A DNA stretch of 64,000 nucleotides from Streptomyces sp. ALI-76-A. GTDB lineage: Bacteria > Actinomycetota > Actinomycetes > Streptomycetales > Streptomycetaceae. The stretch is taken from positions 868,001 to 932,000 of the forward strand of contig NZ_JASVWB010000002.1 in assembly GCF_030287445.1 (NCBI RefSeq), read 5' to 3'. The notes beneath the pieces are model-generated. The model searched no databases. It had not been told where the DNA came from and saw only the letters and a program-made list of their open reading frames with translations. Each line of letters begins with the position of its first letter. The stretch's first letter is position 1. Below are positions 1,704 to 12,218 of the stretch, one piece after another. The position numbers and the translations under genes were made by a program.

Positions 1704-2023
1704 CCAGGACAGCGTGCGCCGGGGCGGAGGGCGGCCGCTTCGGACGCGCGCGGGGCTGCCTCCGGCGGACGGTGCCGGAGGCAGCCTGGACCGGGCCGCC
1801 GCGGGCGGAGGGCCGGTCGGTCGGGGGGCCGGGCGGCCGGGCGGGAGCGAGCCGGGGCTGTCCGGCGCCCGCGCGGACGGAGCGCGCGGACGGAAGGTGA
1901 ACCGGGGGATGCTAGACATCCACAGAGGCGCGCGCGTCCGATCCCGGACCCGCCGATCACGGCCCCGTGATCATCTGCTTTGCTGTGCCCGTCGGGCAGG
2001 GACCTCACCGGGCGGGGACGATC

Positions 2024-2770
2024 ATGCGGGCACACGTGCAGCACGTAGCCGACGGCGCCCATCTGGTGCACGGCAGCAACACGAACTGGGTGATCCTCAC
2101 CGAGGGGGACGCCGTGACGCTGGTCGACACCGGCTACCCCGGCGACCGGGAGCAGCTCCTCGCCTCCCTGGCGGAGGTGGGCAGTTCACCCGAGGCGGTC
2201 CAGGCCGTGCTGATCACCCACGCCCACAACGACCATCTGGGCTCCGCCGAGTACCTGCGCGCGGCCCACGGCACGCCCGTGTACCTGCACGAGGCCGAAG
2301 TGCCGCACGCCCGCCGGGAGTTCCTGCACCAGGTCGACGTCAGGACGGTCCTGCGGAACGGCTGGCGGCCGGGTGTGCTGCCGTGGGCCGTGCACGCGAT
2401 CCGTTCCGGCGGCACCACGCACGTCCCGGTCGCCTCGCCCGAGCCGTTCCCGACGGCGGGCCCGCTCGACCTGCCCGGCCGGCCCGTCCCCGTGCACACC
2501 CCGGGCCACACCGACGGCCACGCCGCCTTCCACCTTCCGGACCGGGGCATCGTGATCTCGGGCGACGCCCTGGTGAGCGGCCACCCCACGTCCCGGGTCG
2601 AGGGGCCGCAGCTGCTGCCCGACATGTTCCACCACGAGCGCGCCCGGACCGTGGCGTCGCTGGACGTCCTCGAAGCACTGGAGGGCGATCTGCTGCTGCC
2701 CGGGCACGGGCCCGCGCACCGCGGTCCGGTCCGTGAGGCGGCACTTCGGGCCCGGGAGCGCGCGCTCTAA
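2024..2770 (+). CDS. Metallo-beta-lactamase-fold hydrolase
   Basis: A 248-residue MBL-fold protein. The metal motif THAHNDHLG gives H66, H68, D70 and H71. Further ligands are in TPGHTDGH, the bridging aspartate in ISGDAL, and the last histidine in LLPGHGPAH. This glyoxalase-II/quorum-lactonase-like pattern fits a soluble thioester, lactone or phosphodiester hydrolase. I cannot name the substrate. The ATG at 2024 follows GGGGACG; frames opening further upstream lack a good ribosome-binding site. It ends 59 bp before the DUF4032 gene on the same strand. Confidence 0.88.
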   Translation: MRAHVQHVADGAHLVHGSNTNWVILTEGDAVTLVDTGYPGDREQLLASLAEVGSSPEAVQAVLITHAHNDHLGSAEYLRAAHGTPVYLHEAEVPHARREFLHQVDVRTVLRNGWRPGVLPWAVHAIRSGGTTHVPVASPEPFPTAGPLDLPGRPVPVHTPGHTDGHAAFHLPDRGIVISGDALVSGHPTSRVEGPQLLPDMFHHERARTVASLDVLEALEGDLLLPGHGPAHRGPVREAALRARERAL

Positions 2771-4108: not shown

Positions 4109-4984
4109 TCAGGCCGGCGGCGGCACCACCGCCACCGGGCAGCCCGCGTGGTGCAGCACACCGTGGGCCACCGATCCGATCCGGGCGCCCACCGCCGTAC
4201 GGCGGGCACGGCGTCCGACGACCATCAGCTGGGCCTGCCCGGCCACCGACAGCAGGACCTGCCCGGCGCTGCCCATCTCCACGTGCTCGACGACCGGCAC
4301 CTCCGGGAACCGGTCCCGCCACGGCTCCAGCGCGGCGGCCAGGGCCTTCTTCTCGTACGGCTCCAGACCGCCGGCCTCGTCGAGGAGCTTGAGCGAACCG
4401 GGGCTGTAGGCGAAGAGCGGCGGCAGGGTCCAGGCCCGTACCGCGCGCACCGTGGCCCCGCGCGCCGCCGCCGTCTCGAACGCGAACCGCAGGGCGTCGG
4501 CGCTGTCCTGCGGATCGCCCTGCTGGCCGACGACGATCTCGCGGCCCGCCGCCTCGGCCGCGGGCTCGTCCCCGGCGCGTACCAGGACGACCGGCCGCGC
4601 CGCCTCCACGATCACCTGCTGGCCGACCGAACCGACCAGGAAACCGACGACCCGGCCGTGCCCGCGTGAGCCGAGCACCAGCATCTCGGCGTCGGCCGCC
4701 GCGGCGACCAGCGCCTCCGCCTCGGGGCCCTGCACCACGTCGGTGGACACCTCCAGCTCCGGGTGCCGCTCGGTGACGGTCCGGGCGGCCTCGCCCACCG
4801 CCTCCCGCGCCCATCCGGCCTGGACGTCGGGGTTCGCCGCCTCGATGACCTCGTGCGGCTGGTACCGCCAGGCGTGCACCACCCGCAGCGCGAGCTTCCG
4901 GCGGGCCGCCTCCCGGGCCGCCCAGGCCAGCGCGGCCCGGCTCTCCTCGGTTCCGTCGACCCCTGCCGTGATCGGGCGCGTCAT
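4109..4984 (-). CDS. Universal stress protein with two UspA domains
   Basis: A 291-residue tandem UspA protein. Domain 1 (about 1-138) starts ITAGVDGTEESRAALAWA and carries the ATP-binding motif LGSRGHGRVVGFLVGSVGQ. Domain 2 (about 148-288) carries VGRRARRTAVGARIGSVAHG. Both keep the G-x2-G-x9-G(S/T) pattern of nucleotide-binding Usp proteins. Such proteins are induced by hypoxia, starvation or oxidative stress. The start at 4984 has GGGGAGG just upstream. It is divergent from the VOC gene at 5047, with only 62 bp between the two starts. Confidence 0.93.
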   Translation of the reverse strand: MTRPITAGVDGTEESRAALAWAAREAARRKLALRVVHAWRYQPHEVIEAANPDVQAGWAREAVGEAARTVTERHPELEVSTDVVQGPEAEALVAAAADAEMLVLGSRGHGRVVGFLVGSVGQQVIVEAARPVVLVRAGDEPAAEAAGREIVVGQQGDPQDSADALRFAFETAAARGATVRAVRAWTLPPLFAYSPGSLKLLDEAGGLEPYEKKALAAALEPWRDRFPEVPVVEHVEMGSAGQVLLSVAGQAQLMVVGRRARRTAVGARIGSVAHGVLHHAGCPVAVVPPPA

Positions 4985-5561: not shown

Positions 5562-7238
5562 ATGGCACAGGCCGCGGACGCGACGCGGACCGTCATCTTG
5601 ACCGTGGACGACGACCCGGGAGTGTCCCGGGCCGTCGCCCGGGACCTGCGGCGCCGCTACGGCGAGTCGTACCGGATCGTGCGCGCCGAGTCCGGCGAGT
5701 CCGCGCTGGAGGCCCTGCGTGAGCTGAAGCTGCGCGGCGACCTGGTGGCCGTGATCCTCGCGGACTACCGGATGCCGCGGATGAACGGCATCGAGTTCCT
5801 GGAGCAGGCCCTGGACGTGTATCCGGGGGCGCGCCGGGTGCTGCTGACGGCGTACGCGGACACCAGCGCGGCGATCGACGCGATCAACGTCGTCGACCTG
5901 GACCACTACCTCCTCAAGCCGTGGGACCCGCCCGAGGAGAAGCTGTACCCGGTCCTGGACGACCTCCTGGAGGCATGGCGGAGCAGCGACTTCCGGCCGG
6001 TGCCCGCCACCAAGGTGGTCGGCCACCGCTGGTCGGCGCGTTCGTCGGACGTGCGGGAGTTCCTGGCCCGCAACCAGGTGCCCTACCGGTGGTACTCGGC
6101 GGACGAGCCCGAGGGGCGGCGGCTGCTCGCGGCGGCCGGTCAGGACGCCCGGCGGCTGCCGCTGGTGATCACCCCGGACGGCACGCCGCTGGTCGAGCCG
6201 GAGGCGCCCGAGCTGGCCGCGCGGGTGGGGCTGGCCACGACGCCGGCGGCCGACTTCTACGACCTCGTCGTCATCGGCGGCGGCCCGGCGGGCCTCGGCG
6301 CCGCGGTGTACGGGGCCTCCGAAGGGCTGCGCACCGTGCTGGTGGAGCGGTCGGCGACCGGTGGACAGGCGGGCCAGAGTTCCCGCATCGAGAACTACCT
6401 GGGCTTCCCGGACGGCGTGTCGGGCGGTCAGCTGACCGAGCGGGCACGCCGGCAGGCGACGAAGTTCGGTGCCGAGATCCTCACCGCGCGCGAGGTGACG
6501 GGGCTGGAGGCCAACGGCTCCGCGCGGGTCGTCCGGTTCTCCGACGGCTCGGCCATCGCCGCGCACAGCGTGATCCTGGCGACCGGCGTGTCGTACCGGG
6601 AGCTGGAGGCGCCGGGCACGGCCGACCTGACCGGCTGCGGCGTCTTCTACGGTTCGGCGCTGACCGAGGCGGCCTCCTGCCAGGGCCACGACGTGTACAT
6701 CGTCGGCGGCGCCAACTCGGCGGGCCAGGCGGCGATGTACCTCGCCCGGGGCGCCAAGTCGGTGACCCTGCTGGTGCGCGGTCCGTCGCTGTCCGCGTCG
6801 ATGTCGCACTACCTGATCCAGCAGATCGAGGAGGCGCCGAACATCTCGGTGCGCTGCGGCACGGTCGTGGACGCGGTGCACGGGTCCGGGCGTCTGGAGC
6901 AGCTGACGCTGCGGCATGTGGAGAGCGGCGAGAGCGAACTCGTCGACGCGCAGTGGCTGTTCGTGTTCATCGGGGCGGCCCCGCTGACCGACTGGCTGGA
7001 CGGCGCGGTGCTGCGGGACGAGCACGGGTTCATCCTGTCCGGGCCCGATCTGACAGCGAACGGGCGGCCCCCGGCCGACTGGGAACTGGACCGGCCGCCG
7101 TACCACCTGGAGACCAACATTCCCGGCGTGTTCGTCGCGGGTGACGCCCGCGCCGAGTCCGCGAAACGGGTCGCGTCCGCCGTCGGAGAGGGAGCCATGG
7201 CCGTGATGCTCGTCCACCGGTACCTGGAGCAGTCGTGA
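5562..7238 (+). CDS. Response-regulator / glutaredoxin-like / thioredoxin-reductase-like fusion, no CxxC
   Basis: A 558-residue three-part protein. Residues 10-130 are a receiver domain with the acidic pocket VDDD (16-18), phosphoacceptor D68 (LADYRMP), T96 and K119 all in place. Residues about 155-225 look like a glutaredoxin-type fold (VREFLARNQVPYRW, then LPLVITPDG) without a CxxC. Residues 235-555 are a thioredoxin-reductase-type FAD/NAD(P) module with GGGPAGLG (239-246), GGANSAG and FVAGDAR. Where TrxB has its redox CATC, this protein has CGVFYGSALTEA, so it cannot reduce thioredoxin in the usual way. ATG 5562 follows GGGAG. It overlaps the downstream kinase as GTGA. Confidence 0.9.
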   Translation: MAQAADATRTVILTVDDDPGVSRAVARDLRRRYGESYRIVRAESGESALEALRELKLRGDLVAVILADYRMPRMNGIEFLEQALDVYPGARRVLLTAYADTSAAIDAINVVDLDHYLLKPWDPPEEKLYPVLDDLLEAWRSSDFRPVPATKVVGHRWSARSSDVREFLARNQVPYRWYSADEPEGRRLLAAAGQDARRLPLVITPDGTPLVEPEAPELAARVGLATTPAADFYDLVVIGGGPAGLGAAVYGASEGLRTVLVERSATGGQAGQSSRIENYLGFPDGVSGGQLTERARRQATKFGAEILTAREVTGLEANGSARVVRFSDGSAIAAHSVILATGVSYRELEAPGTADLTGCGVFYGSALTEAASCQGHDVYIVGGANSAGQAAMYLARGAKSVTLLVRGPSLSASMSHYLIQQIEEAPNISVRCGTVVDAVHGSGRLEQLTLRHVESGESELVDAQWLFVFIGAAPLTDWLDGAVLRDEHGFILSGPDLTANGRPPADWELDRPPYHLETNIPGVFVAGDARAESAKRVASAVGEGAMAVMLVHRYLEQS

Positions 7239-8695
7239 GCGGGCGGCCGATGCCGTGCAGCCCGCGGGAGGTCGGCTCGCTGTTCCTGTTCGAGAAGCTG
7301 TCACCCGAGCAGTTGGGACGGCTGTGCGCCGCGGGCCGGGTGGAGAGGTTCGAGCCCGGACCGGTCTACACCGAGGGCGAGCCCGCCACCTGCTTCTACG
7401 TGATGATCGAGGGCACGGTGGTGCTCTCCCGCCGGGTCGGCGGCGACGACGTGGAGGTCAGCCGGACCTCGCAGCGCGGGGTGTACGCCGGGTCGATGCA
7501 GGCGTACCTGGGCGACCGGGTGCCGCAGGTGTACAACAACTCGATGCGCGTCACGGAACCGACGCGGTTCTTCGTGCTGCCCGCCGAGACGTTCTCCGGC
7601 TTCATGCAGGAGTGGTTCCCGATGGCGGTGCATCTGCTGGAGGGGCTGTTCTTCGGGTCGAAGAGCATGCAGCGGGCGATCGGACAGCGCGAACGGCTGC
7701 TGGCGCTCGGCTCGTTGTCCGCCGGTCTCACGCACGAGCTCAACAACCCGGCGGCGGCTGCCGTACGGGCGACCGCGACACTGCGGGAACGCGTGGGCAA
7801 GATGCGGCACAAACTGCGGGTGATCTCCGCGGGCTCGTACGCGCCGGAGGTGCTGGCGAACCTCATCGAGATCCAGGAGCGCACCGCCGAACGCGTGGCC
7901 AAGGCCCCCGTGCTGAGCCCGCTCGAGGCCTCCGACCGGGAGGACGCCGTCACCGACTGGCTCGACGACCACGACATCCCGGAGGGCTGGCGGATCGCCC
8001 CCGTCTTCGTGCAGGCCGGCCTCGACATCGACTGGCTGGACCAGGTGGCGGCGGCCGTGGACGAGGCGATCCTGCCGAGTGCGATCGGCTGGCTCAACTA
8101 CACGGTCGAGACCGAGCTGTTGATGGACGAGATCGACGACTCCACGTCCCGCATCTCGCATCTCGTCGACGCCGCCAAGCAGTACTCGCAGCTCGACCGG
8201 GCCCCCTTCCAGGTGGCGGACGTGCACGACCTGCTGGACAGCACCCTGCTGATGCTGTCGGGCAAGATCGGCCCGCGGATCAAGGTCGTCAAGGACTACG
8301 ACCGCACCGCCCCGAAGGTGCCGGCGTACCCGGCGGAGCTCAACCAGGTGTGGACCAATCTGATCGACAACGCGGTCCACGCCATCGACAGCACGGGCGG
8401 GGAGGGGACGCTGACCGTGCGGACGGCCCTGGACCACGACCGGCTGCTGGTGGAGTTCCGCGACACCGGACCCGGCGTCCCCAAAGAGATCCGCAGCCGT
8501 ATCTTCGACCCGTTCTTCACCACCAAGCCGGTGGGCGAGGGCACCGGGCTGGGCCTGGACATCTCCTGGCGGATCGTCGTCAACAAGCACCACGGCTCGC
8601 TCCTGGTGGAGTCCGAGCCGGGTGACACCCGCTTCCAGGTCCTGCTTCCGCTCACGGCCGCGGAACCCGACACATCACCCGAGGAGCCCGCATGA
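7235..8695 (+). CDS. Soluble sensor histidine kinase with cyclic-nucleotide-binding-type domain
   Basis: A 486-residue protein with no membrane segment. Residues about 15-140 form a Crp/cNMP-binding-like sensor domain. A HisKA-like segment follows with the phosphoacceptor H167 in LTHELNNPAAA. The C-terminal HATPase domain has its N box NQVWTNLIDNAVHAI (N379), G1 DTGPG (410-414), F box FDPFFTTK and G2 GTGLGLD. The GTG start overlaps the TGA of the REC-TrxR gene and its stop overlaps the start of the zinc-finger gene, so all three are translated together. It probably phosphorylates D68 of the upstream fusion protein. Confidence 0.9.
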   Translation: MSGRPMPCSPREVGSLFLFEKLSPEQLGRLCAAGRVERFEPGPVYTEGEPATCFYVMIEGTVVLSRRVGGDDVEVSRTSQRGVYAGSMQAYLGDRVPQVYNNSMRVTEPTRFFVLPAETFSGFMQEWFPMAVHLLEGLFFGSKSMQRAIGQRERLLALGSLSAGLTHELNNPAAAAVRATATLRERVGKMRHKLRVISAGSYAPEVLANLIEIQERTAERVAKAPVLSPLEASDREDAVTDWLDDHDIPEGWRIAPVFVQAGLDIDWLDQVAAAVDEAILPSAIGWLNYTVETELLMDEIDDSTSRISHLVDAAKQYSQLDRAPFQVADVHDLLDSTLLMLSGKIGPRIKVVKDYDRTAPKVPAYPAELNQVWTNLIDNAVHAIDSTGGEGTLTVRTALDHDRLLVEFRDTGPGVPKEIRSRIFDPFFTTKPVGEGTGLGLDISWRIVVNKHHGSLLVESEPGDTRFQVLLPLTAAEPDTSPEEPA

Positions 8696-9054
8696 CCAGC
8701 GACCACGCCATCGACGGAATCGACACGGCCGTACCGCCGAGCGGGGCGGGCTGTCAGGAGTGCGACGCCGCCGGCGGCTGGTGGTTCCATCTGCGGCGCT
8801 GCGCGCGGTGCGGCCACGTCGGCTGCTGCGACTCCTCCCCCGCCCAGCACGCCACCGGGCACTTCCAGGAGACGGGGCATCCCCTGGTGCAGAGCTTCGA
8901 GCCCGGCGAGGGCTGGTACTGGAACTACGCCACGAACGAGCTGTACGAGTCGGGGCCCGAACTCACCCCGCCGGCCGGCCATCCCGCGGACCAGCCCGCG
9001 CCGGGCCCCGCGGGGCGGGTGCCGGCCGACTGGGCACGATCGTTGCGCCAGTGA
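8692..9054 (+). CDS. UBP-type zinc-finger protein
   Basis: A 120-residue protein with a UBP (ubiquitin-hydrolase-type) zinc finger at about residues 20-75. Cysteines C21, C24, C37, C40 and C45 and histidines H53, H57 and H63 are placed as in that fold (CQECDAAGGWWFHL, CARCGHVGCCDSS, HATGHFQETGHPL). In eukaryotes this domain binds the C-terminal Gly-Gly of free ubiquitin; here the partner is unknown. The ATG overlaps the kinase stop as ATGA. It is the third member of the coupled redox-signalling unit and probably a protein-protein adaptor. Confidence 0.88.
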   Translation: MTSDHAIDGIDTAVPPSGAGCQECDAAGGWWFHLRRCARCGHVGCCDSSPAQHATGHFQETGHPLVQSFEPGEGWYWNYATNELYESGPELTPPAGHPADQPAPGPAGRVPADWARSLRQ

Positions 9055-9251: not shown

Positions 9252-12218
9252 GTGCCGACGATCTCGAACACCGCACCGCTCATCGGCCGGGAGGACGAAC
9301 TCGCCCACCTCACCGGCGTGCTGGAACGCGCCCGGAGCGGTGAGGCGAGGGCGGTCCTGATCGCCGGGGACGCCGGCGTAGGCAAGACACGCATGCTCCA
9401 CGAGGTCGCCGGGCGGGCCGCCCGGTCCGGCACGACGGTGCTCACCGGGCACTGCGTCGACCTCGGTGACGTCGGCCTGCCGTACCTGCCGTTCACCGAG
9501 GTCCTGGGCGTCCTCGCGGCCGACCCGCGGTTCGCGGACGCGTTCGCGGCGCATCCGGTGGTGGACCGGCTGCTGGGCGGCGGCACGGACGCCGTGCGGG
9601 ACACGGGCGACCGGCTGCGGCTCTTCGAGGGCATCGCGGGGCTGCTGGCCGACCTCTCGGACATCGCTCCCCTGCTGCTCGTCCTGGAGGACCTGCACTG
9701 GGCCGACCAGTCCTCCCGGGACCTGCTGCGGTTCCTGCTCAGCCGGGGCATCCTCCAGCGGTCGGCGGGCGGCGCGCCCACGCACCGGCTGGCCGTGTTC
9801 GCCTCCTACCGCGCCGACGACCTGCACCGCCGCCATCCGCTGCGGCCGCTGCTGGCCGAGTTGGTGCGGCTGCCCTCGGTGGAGCGGCTGGAGCTGCGGC
9901 CCATGGCCGACGCCGAGGTGGCCCGCCTGGTGCGCGCCCTGGGCGACAGCGCGCTGGCGGACACCACGGTCCGGCGGATCGTCGAGCGCGCCGAGGGCAA
10001 CGCCTTCTACGCGGAGGAACTGCTGGCGGCCACCGACCCGGCGGCCGGGGGTGTGCCCAGCGGTCTCGCGGACGTCCTCCTCATCCGCTTCGAGCAACTC
10101 TCCGACACCGCCCAGCAGGTGCTGCGCACGGCCGCGGTGGCGGGACGCCGGGTCGAGCACGATCTGCTGCGGGAGGCGGTCGGGCTCCCCGAGGACGAGC
10201 TGGAGTCGGCGCTGCGCGAGGCCGTCGGGCGTCAACTGCTGGCCCCCGGCACCGACGACACGTACGCCTTCCGGCACGCCCTGGCCCGTGAGGCGGTCTA
10301 CGCCGACCTGCTTCCCGGTGAACGGGCGCGCCTGCACGGCGCGTTCGCCCGGCTGCTCACCGGGCGGGGCCGGCCTGCCGAGAGCGCGGCGGAACGCGCC
10401 CACCACTACCGGGAGAGCCATGACCTGGCCGAGGCGCTGGCCGCCTCGCTGGAGGCGGCCGGCCACGCCCGGTCGCTGGGGGCGCCCGCGGAGGAACTGC
10501 GGCACCTGGAAACGGCCCTGGACCTGTGGTCGGCGGTGGAGCCGTCCGCGCGGCCCACGGGTGAGGGCGTCGACCGGGTGACCCTCACGCTGCGTGCCTC
10601 GGCGGCGGCCGCGCACGCCGGGGAGGCGCACCGGGCGGTGTCGCTCACCCGGGCCGCGCTCGCGGGCGTCGACCAGGACGCGGACTCGGAGCTCGCCGCG
10701 CGGGTGCGGTACACGCTCGCCGGGAACCTGATCAGCGTCGACAGCCAGACGGCGGCCTTCGCCTACAGCAGCGAGGCCCTCGCCATGATCCCGGCCGATC
10801 CCCCGTCCCGCACCTGGGTGTGGGCGGCTGCCACCCATGTCCTGGCGGCGCGTCAGGTCGGGGAGAACGAGACCGCGCTGCGGGTCGCCCGGCAGGCCCT
10901 GAGCGTCGCGGAGCGGCTGGACGTGACCGACGCGCGCGCGGATCTGCTGATCTCGCTGGCGGCCCTGGGCGGCGGCCGCCAAACCCAGGAGGGCCGGGAG
11001 CGGTTGCGGGAGGCCCGGGATCTCGCGCGCCGCTCGGGCAACGCGCCGGTGGAGATGCGCGCGCTGTTCAACCTCGCCGTCGGCTGCTTCGAGTCCGGTG
11101 ACCTCGACGAGTGCCTGCCCTGGCTGACCGAGGGGCTGGACCGCGCCCGCCGTGCGGGCCTGCTGTCCTCGCCCTATCCGCTGGAGATGCGCTACCTGCG
11201 GCTGTTGGTGCTGTACACCCTGGGCCGCTGGGAGGAGTGCGTACGCGCGGCGGCCACCGACTCCGACGTGCTTCCGGCGGCCGGCGGGTACACGGTCGGC
11301 CCCGCGCTGTACGCGGCGCTGGCGCGCGGCGACCTCACGGCCGTCCACCGGGCGGGCACCCTGCTCGACGGTCCGTTCGACTGGATGGGCACGCTGGTCG
11401 CGGGCATCGTGCTGACCGACGCGGCGGCGTGGCAGGGGGATCCGGAGGCGGCCGTGGCGCGGATGCGGTCCACCCTGACGGCTCTCACGGACGACGCGGG
11501 CACACTGCCCGACGTCACGGTCCGGCTGGCCGCCCTCGCCCTGTCCGCGGTGGCCGACCGGGCCGCCGCGCTGCGCGGGAGCGGTGACGAGACGGGTGCG
11601 GCCCGCTGGGCGGACACCGCGACCGAACTGCGTGACCTGGCCCGGCGCACGGCCACGCGCGGCGAGGACGCCACCGCGCAGGGACCGGAGGGGCAGGCGT
11701 GGCTGGCCCGGGCCGAGGCGGAGTGGGCACGGGCCGTGACCGGTCCGGACGCGGCGGCCTGGAGCCGGGCGGTCGCCGCCTTCGACTTCGGTGACGTGTA
11801 CGAGCGGGCGCGGTGCCGGATGCGGCTGGTGGAGGCCCTGGTGGCGGCCGATCGGCGCGAGGAGGCGGCCGTGGAGGCCCGCGCGGTCCGCGAGACGGCC
11901 ACCCGGCTCGGTGCCACGCCGCTGCTGGACCAGGTGAACGCGCTGGTCCGGCGGGGGCGCCTGGCGGACACCGCGGCCGCCGGGGACCGTGCCCCGGTCC
12001 TGACCGCCCGGGAGCGGGACGTCCTGCGGCTGCTCGCCCTGGGGCGCAGCAACCGGCAGATCGGCGAGGAGCTGTTCATCACCGGAAAGACGGCGAGCGT
12101 GCATGTCTCCAACATCCTCGCCAAGCTGGGCGCGGCCGGACGTACGGAGGCGGTGGCCGTCGCCTACCGGGAGGGCCTGATCACTCCGGAGCCGAGCGGC
12201 TCGGGGCGCCCGTCCTGA
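9252..12218 (+). CDS. Large ATP-binding LuxR-family (LAL-type) regulator
   Basis: A 988-residue regulator of the LAL/MalT-like class. An N-terminal AAA ATPase holds Walker A GDAGVGKT (39-46) and Walker B LLLVLEDLHWAD. A long helical, TPR-like middle region follows. The C-terminal LuxR helix-turn-helix is recognisable from LTARERDVLRLLALGRSN and TASVHVSNILAKLG. Such proteins are usually activators of nearby or pathway genes. The GTG lies only one base after GGAGG, so the true start could be slightly different. Its stop is one base from the stop of the convergent SGNH gene. Confidence 0.93.
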   Translation: MPTISNTAPLIGREDELAHLTGVLERARSGEARAVLIAGDAGVGKTRMLHEVAGRAARSGTTVLTGHCVDLGDVGLPYLPFTEVLGVLAADPRFADAFAAHPVVDRLLGGGTDAVRDTGDRLRLFEGIAGLLADLSDIAPLLLVLEDLHWADQSSRDLLRFLLSRGILQRSAGGAPTHRLAVFASYRADDLHRRHPLRPLLAELVRLPSVERLELRPMADAEVARLVRALGDSALADTTVRRIVERAEGNAFYAEELLAATDPAAGGVPSGLADVLLIRFEQLSDTAQQVLRTAAVAGRRVEHDLLREAVGLPEDELESALREAVGRQLLAPGTDDTYAFRHALAREAVYADLLPGERARLHGAFARLLTGRGRPAESAAERAHHYRESHDLAEALAASLEAAGHARSLGAPAEELRHLETALDLWSAVEPSARPTGEGVDRVTLTLRASAAAAHAGEAHRAVSLTRAALAGVDQDADSELAARVRYTLAGNLISVDSQTAAFAYSSEALAMIPADPPSRTWVWAAATHVLAARQVGENETALRVARQALSVAERLDVTDARADLLISLAALGGGRQTQEGRERLREARDLARRSGNAPVEMRALFNLAVGCFESGDLDECLPWLTEGLDRARRAGLLSSPYPLEMRYLRLLVLYTLGRWEECVRAAATDSDVLPAAGGYTVGPALYAALARGDLTAVHRAGTLLDGPFDWMGTLVAGIVLTDAAAWQGDPEAAVARMRSTLTALTDDAGTLPDVTVRLAALALSAVADRAAALRGSGDETGAARWADTATELRDLARRTATRGEDATAQGPEGQAWLARAEAEWARAVTGPDAAAWSRAVAAFDFGDVYERARCRMRLVEALVAADRREEAAVEARAVRETATRLGATPLLDQVNALVRRGRLADTAAAGDRAPVLTARERDVLRLLALGRSNRQIGEELFITGKTASVHVSNILAKLGAAGRTEAVAVAYREGLITPEPSGSGRPS

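Follow-up and report, generated by a model that had tools for sequence, protein, structure and literature searches.

Three overlapping genes in a stretch of 64,000 nucleotides from Streptomyces sp. ALI-76-A (contig NZ_JASVWB010000002.1, positions 868,001 to 932,000; the whole stretch is called the window below) encode a flavoprotein composed of a receiver (REC), a glutaredoxin-like and a thioredoxin reductase (TrxR)-like part, a cytosolic histidine kinase with a Crp-like sensor domain, and a small zinc finger protein of the UBP type. Comparison with homologues from several phyla gives good support to a phosphorelay from the kinase onto the flavoprotein, which has lost the thiol centres of its relatives. 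For the trio as a whole we lean, to a modest degree, towards a two-component system with the flavoprotein as its output and UBP as a coupling finger, perhaps towards antiporters. The outputs of two-component systems are mostly transcriptional or act via second messengers; the output of this relay would be a redox-type enzyme without the usual sulphur chemistry and not a gene switch.

Pairing of the kinase and the flavoprotein

To describe how the genes are distributed, we searched a sample of 246 actinobacterial genomes for the kinase (E 1e-40 or better) and the flavoprotein (E 1e-60 or better). The kinase was found in 34 genomes, a flavoprotein match in 63 and UBP in 61. In all 34 kinase-bearing genomes a kinase and a flavoprotein lie 200 bp or less apart, and 46 of the 50 kinase places lie within 3 kb of a flavoprotein. 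A genome collection was also scanned with a kinase alignment, and 80 of at least 595 matching stretches were retained. We counted the 37 loci in which the kinase was matched over nearly its full length and set aside L161, with shorter kinase matches and a free receiver, together with 42 loci that match the common kinase core alone. The flavoprotein adjoins the kinase in 35 of the 37 loci, the other two being L175, with a receiver fragment at a contig end, and L172, with none. These loci reach Acidobacteriota, Bacteroidota, Gemmatimonadota, Pseudomonadota and Verrucomicrobia, and include a Caballeronia and an Eisenbacteria record. Among the Bacteroidota flavoprotein loci that were fetched, the kinase adjoins in 18 of 20, and certain loci hold two or three kinases per single flavoprotein. 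With a receiver profile built from the family, 93 kinase loci were checked for another receiver protein of less than 450 aa, and 2 of them gave one, L161 and, at its cut end, L175.

Receiver integrity with and without the kinase

Of the flavoproteins linked to a kinase, all 70 that were readable retain D68, T96 and K119. Only 2 of 28 kinase-less proteins of the REC type retain all three, and one of these two, L224, is cut at its N-terminus, with D16 and D17 unread. A quick tree was built from the TrxR-like part alone (109 of 119 rows, 10 near-copies removed), which places the kinase-linked proteins, the REC-type proteins without a kinase and the majority of the Crp-fused proteins in separate groups. 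The tree counts exclude 17 rows without a receiver-type N-terminus and the truncated L091, L254 and L257; of the 28 kinase-less rows, the intact-site count has L245 and not L254, the site-change count L254 and not L245. For the sites D16, D17, D68, T96 and K119 together, a single change was counted among the kinase-linked proteins (62 rows, length 21.1) and 57 changes among the kinase-less ones (28 rows, length 14.6), while eight motif sites for FAD and NAD(P)H showed at most one change in each clade. Over the whole receiver the rate of change was 0.73 per column and unit length in the kinase-less clade versus 0.47 in the kinase-linked one, and the other two domains of the flavoprotein change no faster in the kinase-less clade. 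Such a contrast would be expected of a receiver that stays intact because the kinase phosphorylates it. The relay onto a flavoprotein without a thiol centre, as proposed in the initial annotation of this DNA, is thus well supported by comparison, with adjacency in all 34 genomes and a receiver that is intact with the kinase and decayed without it.

Loss of the thiol centres in the flavoprotein

Pfam identified the receiver (Response_reg, 55.2 bits) and the coenzyme-binding module (Pyr_redox_2, 111.4 bits). In an alignment of 39 homologues from several phyla (A2), the DD, D, T and K of the phosphorylation site are invariant in 39/39 rows, as are the residues of the FAD motif, and motifs for both FAD and NAD(P)H are present. 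The redox-active CxxC of TrxR is replaced by SxxT: the alignment to TrxR puts CGVFYGSALTEA (residues 359-370) in its place, as had been noted from the window alone, and the TRX_reduct profile scored 216.5 bits, below its cut-off of 343.45 bits. The glutaredoxin-like nature of the preceding part, another point of the initial annotation, found support in a profile whose top PDB match is the mycoredoxin Rv3198.1 (2lqo, E 1.7e-7). The Pfam Glutaredoxin model matches 4 of 12 family members, and the window's own segment is not matched. Here the CxxC of glutaredoxins and mycoredoxins is lost as well (WSARSS, SxxS; S158 in 35/39 rows and S161 in 33/39), a point that the initial annotation did not make.

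Among the 39 homologues of A2 we found no invariant cysteine. The best-kept one, C373 (35/39), was considered as a hidden thiol centre, and this candidate is weakened by the Bacteroidota, where 13 of 20 fetched loci have Phe at its position. Because both CxxC pairs are gone and no cysteine is invariant, a thioredoxin reductase is ruled out by motifs, and judged from the sequences the name “thioredoxin reductase” that some sources give to some members cannot be correct. A separate position of the FAD module, residue 277 (window 6390-6392) within the stretch SSRIENYLGFP, is Glu in 62/62 kinase-linked and Arg in 28/28 kinase-less REC-type proteins.

The kinase and its input domain

The kinase has a HATPase_c domain (83.2 bits) and a Crp-like domain (cNMP_binding, 29.7 bits against a cut-off of 27.5). 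H167 of its H-box is kept in 39/39 and 48/48 rows of two alignments. HisKA scored 17.5 bits, below its cut-off of 26.9, and covers residues 158-186 alone, i.e. the first helix of a domain that is not continuous here; other histidine kinase profiles begin at about residues 293-303. The low score fits the stretch of ~110 residues that lies between the H-box helix and the second helix of the DHp domain. This insert is conserved, unlike in ordinary HisKA kinases, with a median length of 109 residues (range 19-121) in 87 homologues.

Sensing of cyclic nucleotides by the window kinase was rejected as a motif claim, the phosphate-binding cassette (GE..R[ST]A type) being absent, which the initial annotation had likewise not mentioned; a simple cassette pattern occurs in 7 of 87 kinases. 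Some other ligand of the Crp fold is possible. Flavoproteins that stand near UBP without a kinase often have such a fold of their own: all five that were scanned with Pfam (L072, L073, L131, L133, L134) carry an N-terminal cNMP_binding domain, which suggests that the same kind of input reaches the flavoprotein either directly or via kinase and receiver. Exceptions are L117, whose receiver is decayed, and L071 and L078, which lack the length for a domain at the N-terminus. On a plasmid of Rhodococcus sp. PD04 (L073, 1-7960), the finger and the Crp-fused TrxR-like flavoprotein end a chaperone gene cluster, in one run of dnaK, grpE, a J-domain gene, cbpM, clpB, trxA, UBP and the flavoprotein.

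The UBP finger and its linkage to the pair

The third protein belongs to zf-UBP (52.8 bits, cut-off 22.7). C21, C24, C40, C45, C46 and H53, which are of the zinc-ligand type, are kept in 51/51 bacterial fingers. The closest solved relative by sequence is 2ida (E 8.6e-28), listed as “Hypothetical protein” and a member of the same finger family. PADLOC, consulted for an anti-phage defence reading, gave no match for any of the three proteins at E 0.01. A relative of the finger with 57% identity is encoded in a Tunturiibacter phage record (PP885686.1, 63752-64066).

In Streptomyces the finger is closely linked to the kinase. The kinase is present in 40 of 81 Streptomyces genomes, and in 37 of the 40 a UBP lies on the same strand within 600 bp; these 37 include G023, with a broken UBP frame, and G253, with a partial kinase match. 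Conversely, 36 of 41 UBPs of the long type (140 bits or more) in these genomes adjoin a kinase. The frame of G023 (L079, 8336-8700) is interrupted halfway through the finger, either naturally or by a sequencing error. Among 198 Bacteroidota genomes the flavoprotein was found in 30, UBP above the cut-off in 23 and both in 20, so that UBP accompanies 20/30 genomes with the flavoprotein versus 3/168 without it (Fisher p 3e-17, uncorrected for descent). We fetched 20 of the 31 Bacteroidota flavoprotein places, mostly ones with UBP near, and in 13 of these loci the order is UBP-kinase-flavoprotein, with intact receivers. Among genomes selected for the kinase (those of the 37 scan loci without L139-L142, L152 and L172), UBP is present in 24 of 31, seven of the 24 being known beforehand from the scan loci. 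Finally, in genome G094 (L106, 5777-7441, - strand) a zf-UBP is fused to the C-terminus of a Crp-domain kinase, with a REC-flavoprotein and a separate second UBP beside it. The proposal of the initial annotation that the finger is a partner of the relay thus gains from the gene order in two distant phyla and from one kinase-UBP fusion, and loses from the many UBPs that lie elsewhere.

Association with cation:proton antiporters

The finger also occurs with antiporters. Na_H_Exchanger proteins with the finger at their C-terminus are encoded in L076, L128 and L129 (a Deinococcus plasmid and two actinobacteria), and a custom profile, unchecked with Pfam, gave three more actinobacterial antiporter-finger fusions (L306, L316, L325). 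In Bacteroidota genome G536 (L284, 2923-8077), one gene run holds the flavoprotein, an Na_H_Exchanger-TrkA_N-zf-UBP fusion and the kinase. In three other Bacteroidota loci (L269, 3-5145; L275; L285) a TrkA_N antiporter adjoins UBP, with a DsbA-like thioredoxin between the two in L269 and L285 and not in L275; kinase and flavoprotein come next in L269 and L275. Overall, the 20 fetched Bacteroidota loci hold 17 UBP places, and at 15 of these an antiporter lies within 3 kb or is fused to the finger. The Bacteroidota loci are related and thus represent few independent events, so that the fusions and the differing gene orders are the better evidence.

By the same count, no antiporter was found in 40 actinobacterial flavoprotein loci without UBP. 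Among 83 actinobacterial UBP places, read with 4 kb flanks, 20 have the flavoprotein or kinase only, 16 an antiporter only and 3 the kinase together with an antiporter, giving 19/83 with an antiporter. The 83 are what is left of 87 places (89 before duplicates were merged) after four weak matches (35-40 bits; in the window, L080, L081 and L084) away from the UBP gene were discarded, the one in the window falling inside a long frame at 9252-12218. From the 246-genome sample 81 of 84 UBP matches were read with flanks, and two places outside those 84 complete the 83, one in G023 (the broken frame) and one in G125 (a partial finger).

Proposed mechanism and alternatives

From these comparisons we infer the following course of events. 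The Crp-domain kinase would autophosphorylate on H167 and pass the phosphate to D68 of the fused receiver, and phosphorylation of D68 would switch the TrxR-like NAD(P)H/FAD module. As both CxxC centres are lost, the flavoprotein would perform no dithiol exchange; it might use NAD(P)H to reduce an acceptor other than a thiol, or be a conformational switch that reads NAD(P)H. The UBP finger would couple the relay to its target. Outside Streptomyces a cation:proton antiporter is the probable target, given the antiporters that have the finger fused to them and the gene run in which finger, kinase, flavoprotein and antiporter stand together; for Streptomyces an antiporter target is a weaker hypothesis. 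More tentative is a widespread relay that gates cation:proton antiporters, in which the kinase would phosphorylate the flavoprotein and UBP, free or fused, would carry the state of the flavoprotein to the antiporter, as a phosphorelay-controlled counterpart of KefC/KefF; in this extended form we regard the proposal as rather doubtful. The sole receiver seen beside the conserved kinase is, in several phyla, part of a flavoprotein with coenzyme motifs kept and thiol pairs lost, and a direct switch from a kinase to a redox enzyme thereby becomes testable. Bacterial UBP fingers, which share the fold of eukaryotic ubiquitin readers and for which we found no tested role, gain concrete partners in the kinase, the flavoprotein and the antiporter.

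Several observations weigh against a coupled relay of this kind. With regard to the pair, L172 is a kinase without the flavoprotein, and in L161 (1896-3668, - strand, Gemmatimonadota) a shorter-match kinase comes with a free-standing receiver of 162 aa and no adjoining flavoprotein. With regard to the receiver, D68 taken alone is kept in 11 of the 28 kinase-less proteins, which were judged kinase-less on flanks of ~3.5 kb, some ended by contig ends, and the Shimodaira-Hasegawa-like approximate likelihood ratio test (SH-aLRT) gave 92 for the kinase-linked and 90 for the kinase-less group, under the 95 mark. The idea that receivers decayed many times independently, each time with loss of the kinase, was rejected: kinase adjacency changes once on the tree, which leaves one contrast between two clades, and an independent-pairs sign test cannot reach significance. 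Conservation of the trio across actinobacteria, named as a check in the initial annotation, is seen for kinase and flavoprotein, and UBP in many cases stands apart: of the 34 kinase genomes, 12 have it at 1 kb or less from the kinase and 16 at 7 kb or less; a UBP match is missing in 8 of the 34, though G125 has a weak one. UBP was present in the fetched stretch of 11 of the 37 scan loci and in none of the other 26, mycobacterial loci included, and the co-occurrence tests are uncorrected for descent. With regard to the antiporter, none was found in 38 kinase loci of the genome collection, 11 of them with UBP, and for 44 of the 83 actinobacterial UBPs the 4 kb flanks contain neither kinase nor flavoprotein nor antiporter. 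There is no antiporter beside the window trio; the second UBP of this genome stands divergently next to one.

Some of these points would be accounted for if kinase and flavoprotein were a genuine two-component system and UBP merely an operon passenger with an unrelated role. The 44 UBPs without partners nearby and the 26 loci of the pair without adjacent UBP agree with this, but it leaves aside the tight linkage in Streptomyces, the linkage in Bacteroidota in another gene order, the kinase-UBP fusion and the frequency of UBP in kinase-selected genomes (24/31 versus 61/246 and 23/198 in the phylum samples), and we judge it quite improbable. If UBP does act with the pair, it could read a C-terminal peptide tail like its eukaryotic relatives and recruit a protein to the relay, as the initial annotation supposed. 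The finger is similar in sequence to the zf-UBP of USP5 and its aromatic positions are mostly kept (W31 44/51, W75 49/51, W77 42/51). However, the column after the second CxxC, which by alignment we take to be that of the ubiquitin-carboxylate Arg of USP5, is His in 44/51, unlike in a reader of ubiquitin tails, and the Pup system of actinobacteria could hardly be the general ligand since UBP is found also in Bacteroidota, rhizobia and cyanobacteria. Tail reading is therefore not supported on the present comparison, and among the roles considered for the finger it appears to us very improbable.

The finger might instead be a sensor of redox state or electrophiles, in which oxidation of the zinc-binding cysteines alters a bound kinase or antiporter and replaces the lost thiol chemistry of the flavoprotein. 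The six invariant Cys/His positions, the C-terminal place of the finger on one kinase and several antiporters, and a flavoprotein without an invariant thiol would suit such a sensor, yet structural zinc sites are also conserved in zf-UBP folds without a redox-sensing role, and we consider it unlikely. A last alternative concerns the flavoprotein, which could be catalytically idle and serve as a scaffold that depends on NAD(P)H or FAD and whose conformation is determined by phosphorylation. The loss of both CxxC in the rows of A2 together with the kept coenzyme-binding sites in both clades is what a scaffold would show, but CxxC-less TrxR-like proteins are active as ferredoxin/flavodoxin NAD(P)+ oxidoreductases (FNRs), as described in PMC10294844, and loss of CxxC is thus no sign of inactivity; we give this possibility little credence. 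The readings are partly compatible, and their likelihoods need not add up to one. We keep the two-component system with flavoprotein output and a coupling finger as the working interpretation.

Gene layout in the window

The trio lies on the + strand at 5562-9054 of the window, in a genome of 9.69 Mb, and its closest named homologues are from Streptomyces. The genes are joined by a GTGA and then an ATGA overlap of 4 bases each. This arrangement, the four domain calls (REC, TrxR-like, Crp-like kinase and UBP, by the Pfam scores given above) and the positions of D68, T96, K119 and H167 agree with what had been read from the window before. A universal stress protein gene adjoins the Streptomyces flavoprotein, at 4109-4984 (- strand) in the window and at 1762-2634 (- strand) in L070, and in Mycolicibacterium (L147, 2845-3711, - strand) the gene at the same place starts like a universal stress protein.

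Features of the kinase, flavoprotein and UBP genes. Positions refer to the window.
Feature	Position	Strand	Basis
REC / glutaredoxin-like / TrxR-like flavoprotein, 558 aa (P0001)	5562..7238	+	ORF and Pfam
Receiver domain, residues 12-124	5595..5933	+	Pfam PF00072 (Response_reg)
Receiver sites D16, D17, D68, T96, K119	D68 5763-5765; T96 5847-5849; K119 5916-5918	+	position check
Glutaredoxin-like domain, about residues 150-226, SxxS in place of CxxC	6009..6239	+	profile match
TrxR-like FAD/NAD(P)H module, residues 228-558	6243..7235	+	Pfam and alignment to TrxR
S365-A-L-T368-E369 where TrxR has CxxC(D)	6654-6668	+	alignment
Cytosolic Crp-domain histidine kinase, 486 aa (P0002), GTG start	7235..8695	+	ORF and Pfam
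Crp-like sensor domain, residues 44-125, without canonical cNMP cassette	7364..7609	+	Pfam PF00027
Kinase phosphoacceptor H167	7733..7735	+	position and conservation
Insert of ~110 residues between the two DHp helices, residues 187-296	7793..8122	+	homologue comparison
HATPase_c, residues 367-474	8333..8656	+	Pfam
zf-UBP protein, 120 aa (P0003)	8692..9054	+	Pfam and zinc-ligand positions

Comparison with known systems

The likeliest place for a mention of bacterial neighbourhoods of UBP is the treble-clef survey of Burroughs, Iyer and Aravind (2011). Our searches of the openly licensed literature found no description of the trio or of such a system, and in this respect the initial annotation, which knew of no described mechanism, still stands. 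The domain combination itself is not new: a 2018 archaeal census recorded REC-TrxR response regulators, called Mycobacterium-like, in two Heimdallarchaeota (PMC5847659), and the flavoprotein has the same combination. The mention of REC-TrxR in that census says nothing on a kinase partner, a lost CxxC, a glutaredoxin-like domain, UBP or antiporters. Some close homologues bear the NCBI name “fused response regulator/thioredoxin-disulfide reductase”, which is misleading, as there is no disulfide centre.

FNRs are the known TrxR-like enzymes that lack CxxC (PMC10294844), and the flavoprotein shares with them a TrxR-like fold that has no CxxC pair. Unlike FNRs, it is nearer to true TrxRs (best E 7.4e-48, as compared with 1.6e-20 for FNRs), adds the REC and glutaredoxin-like parts and seems to be without the C-terminal extension that in FNRs holds an FAD-stacking residue, its C-terminus falling, by sequence alignments alone, approximately where TrxRs end. 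A further relative is the NCBI “cyclic nucleotide-binding domain-containing thioredoxin-disulfide reductase” of the Rhodococcus locus L073, in which a CxxC-less module of glutaredoxin-like and TrxR-like parts likewise occurs near UBP with a Crp-like input. There, unlike in the trio, the Crp-like domain is fused straight to the flavoprotein, with no kinase or receiver, and the gene sits behind dnaK-grpE-clpB-trxA genes.

For the Bacteroidota loci, KefC/KefF of E. coli offers an analogy, as a flavoprotein partner acts there on an antiporter of the TrkA_N/RCK type. KefF is an unrelated flavoprotein of the quinone-oxidoreductase type, and KefC/KefF has neither a phosphorelay nor a UBP finger.

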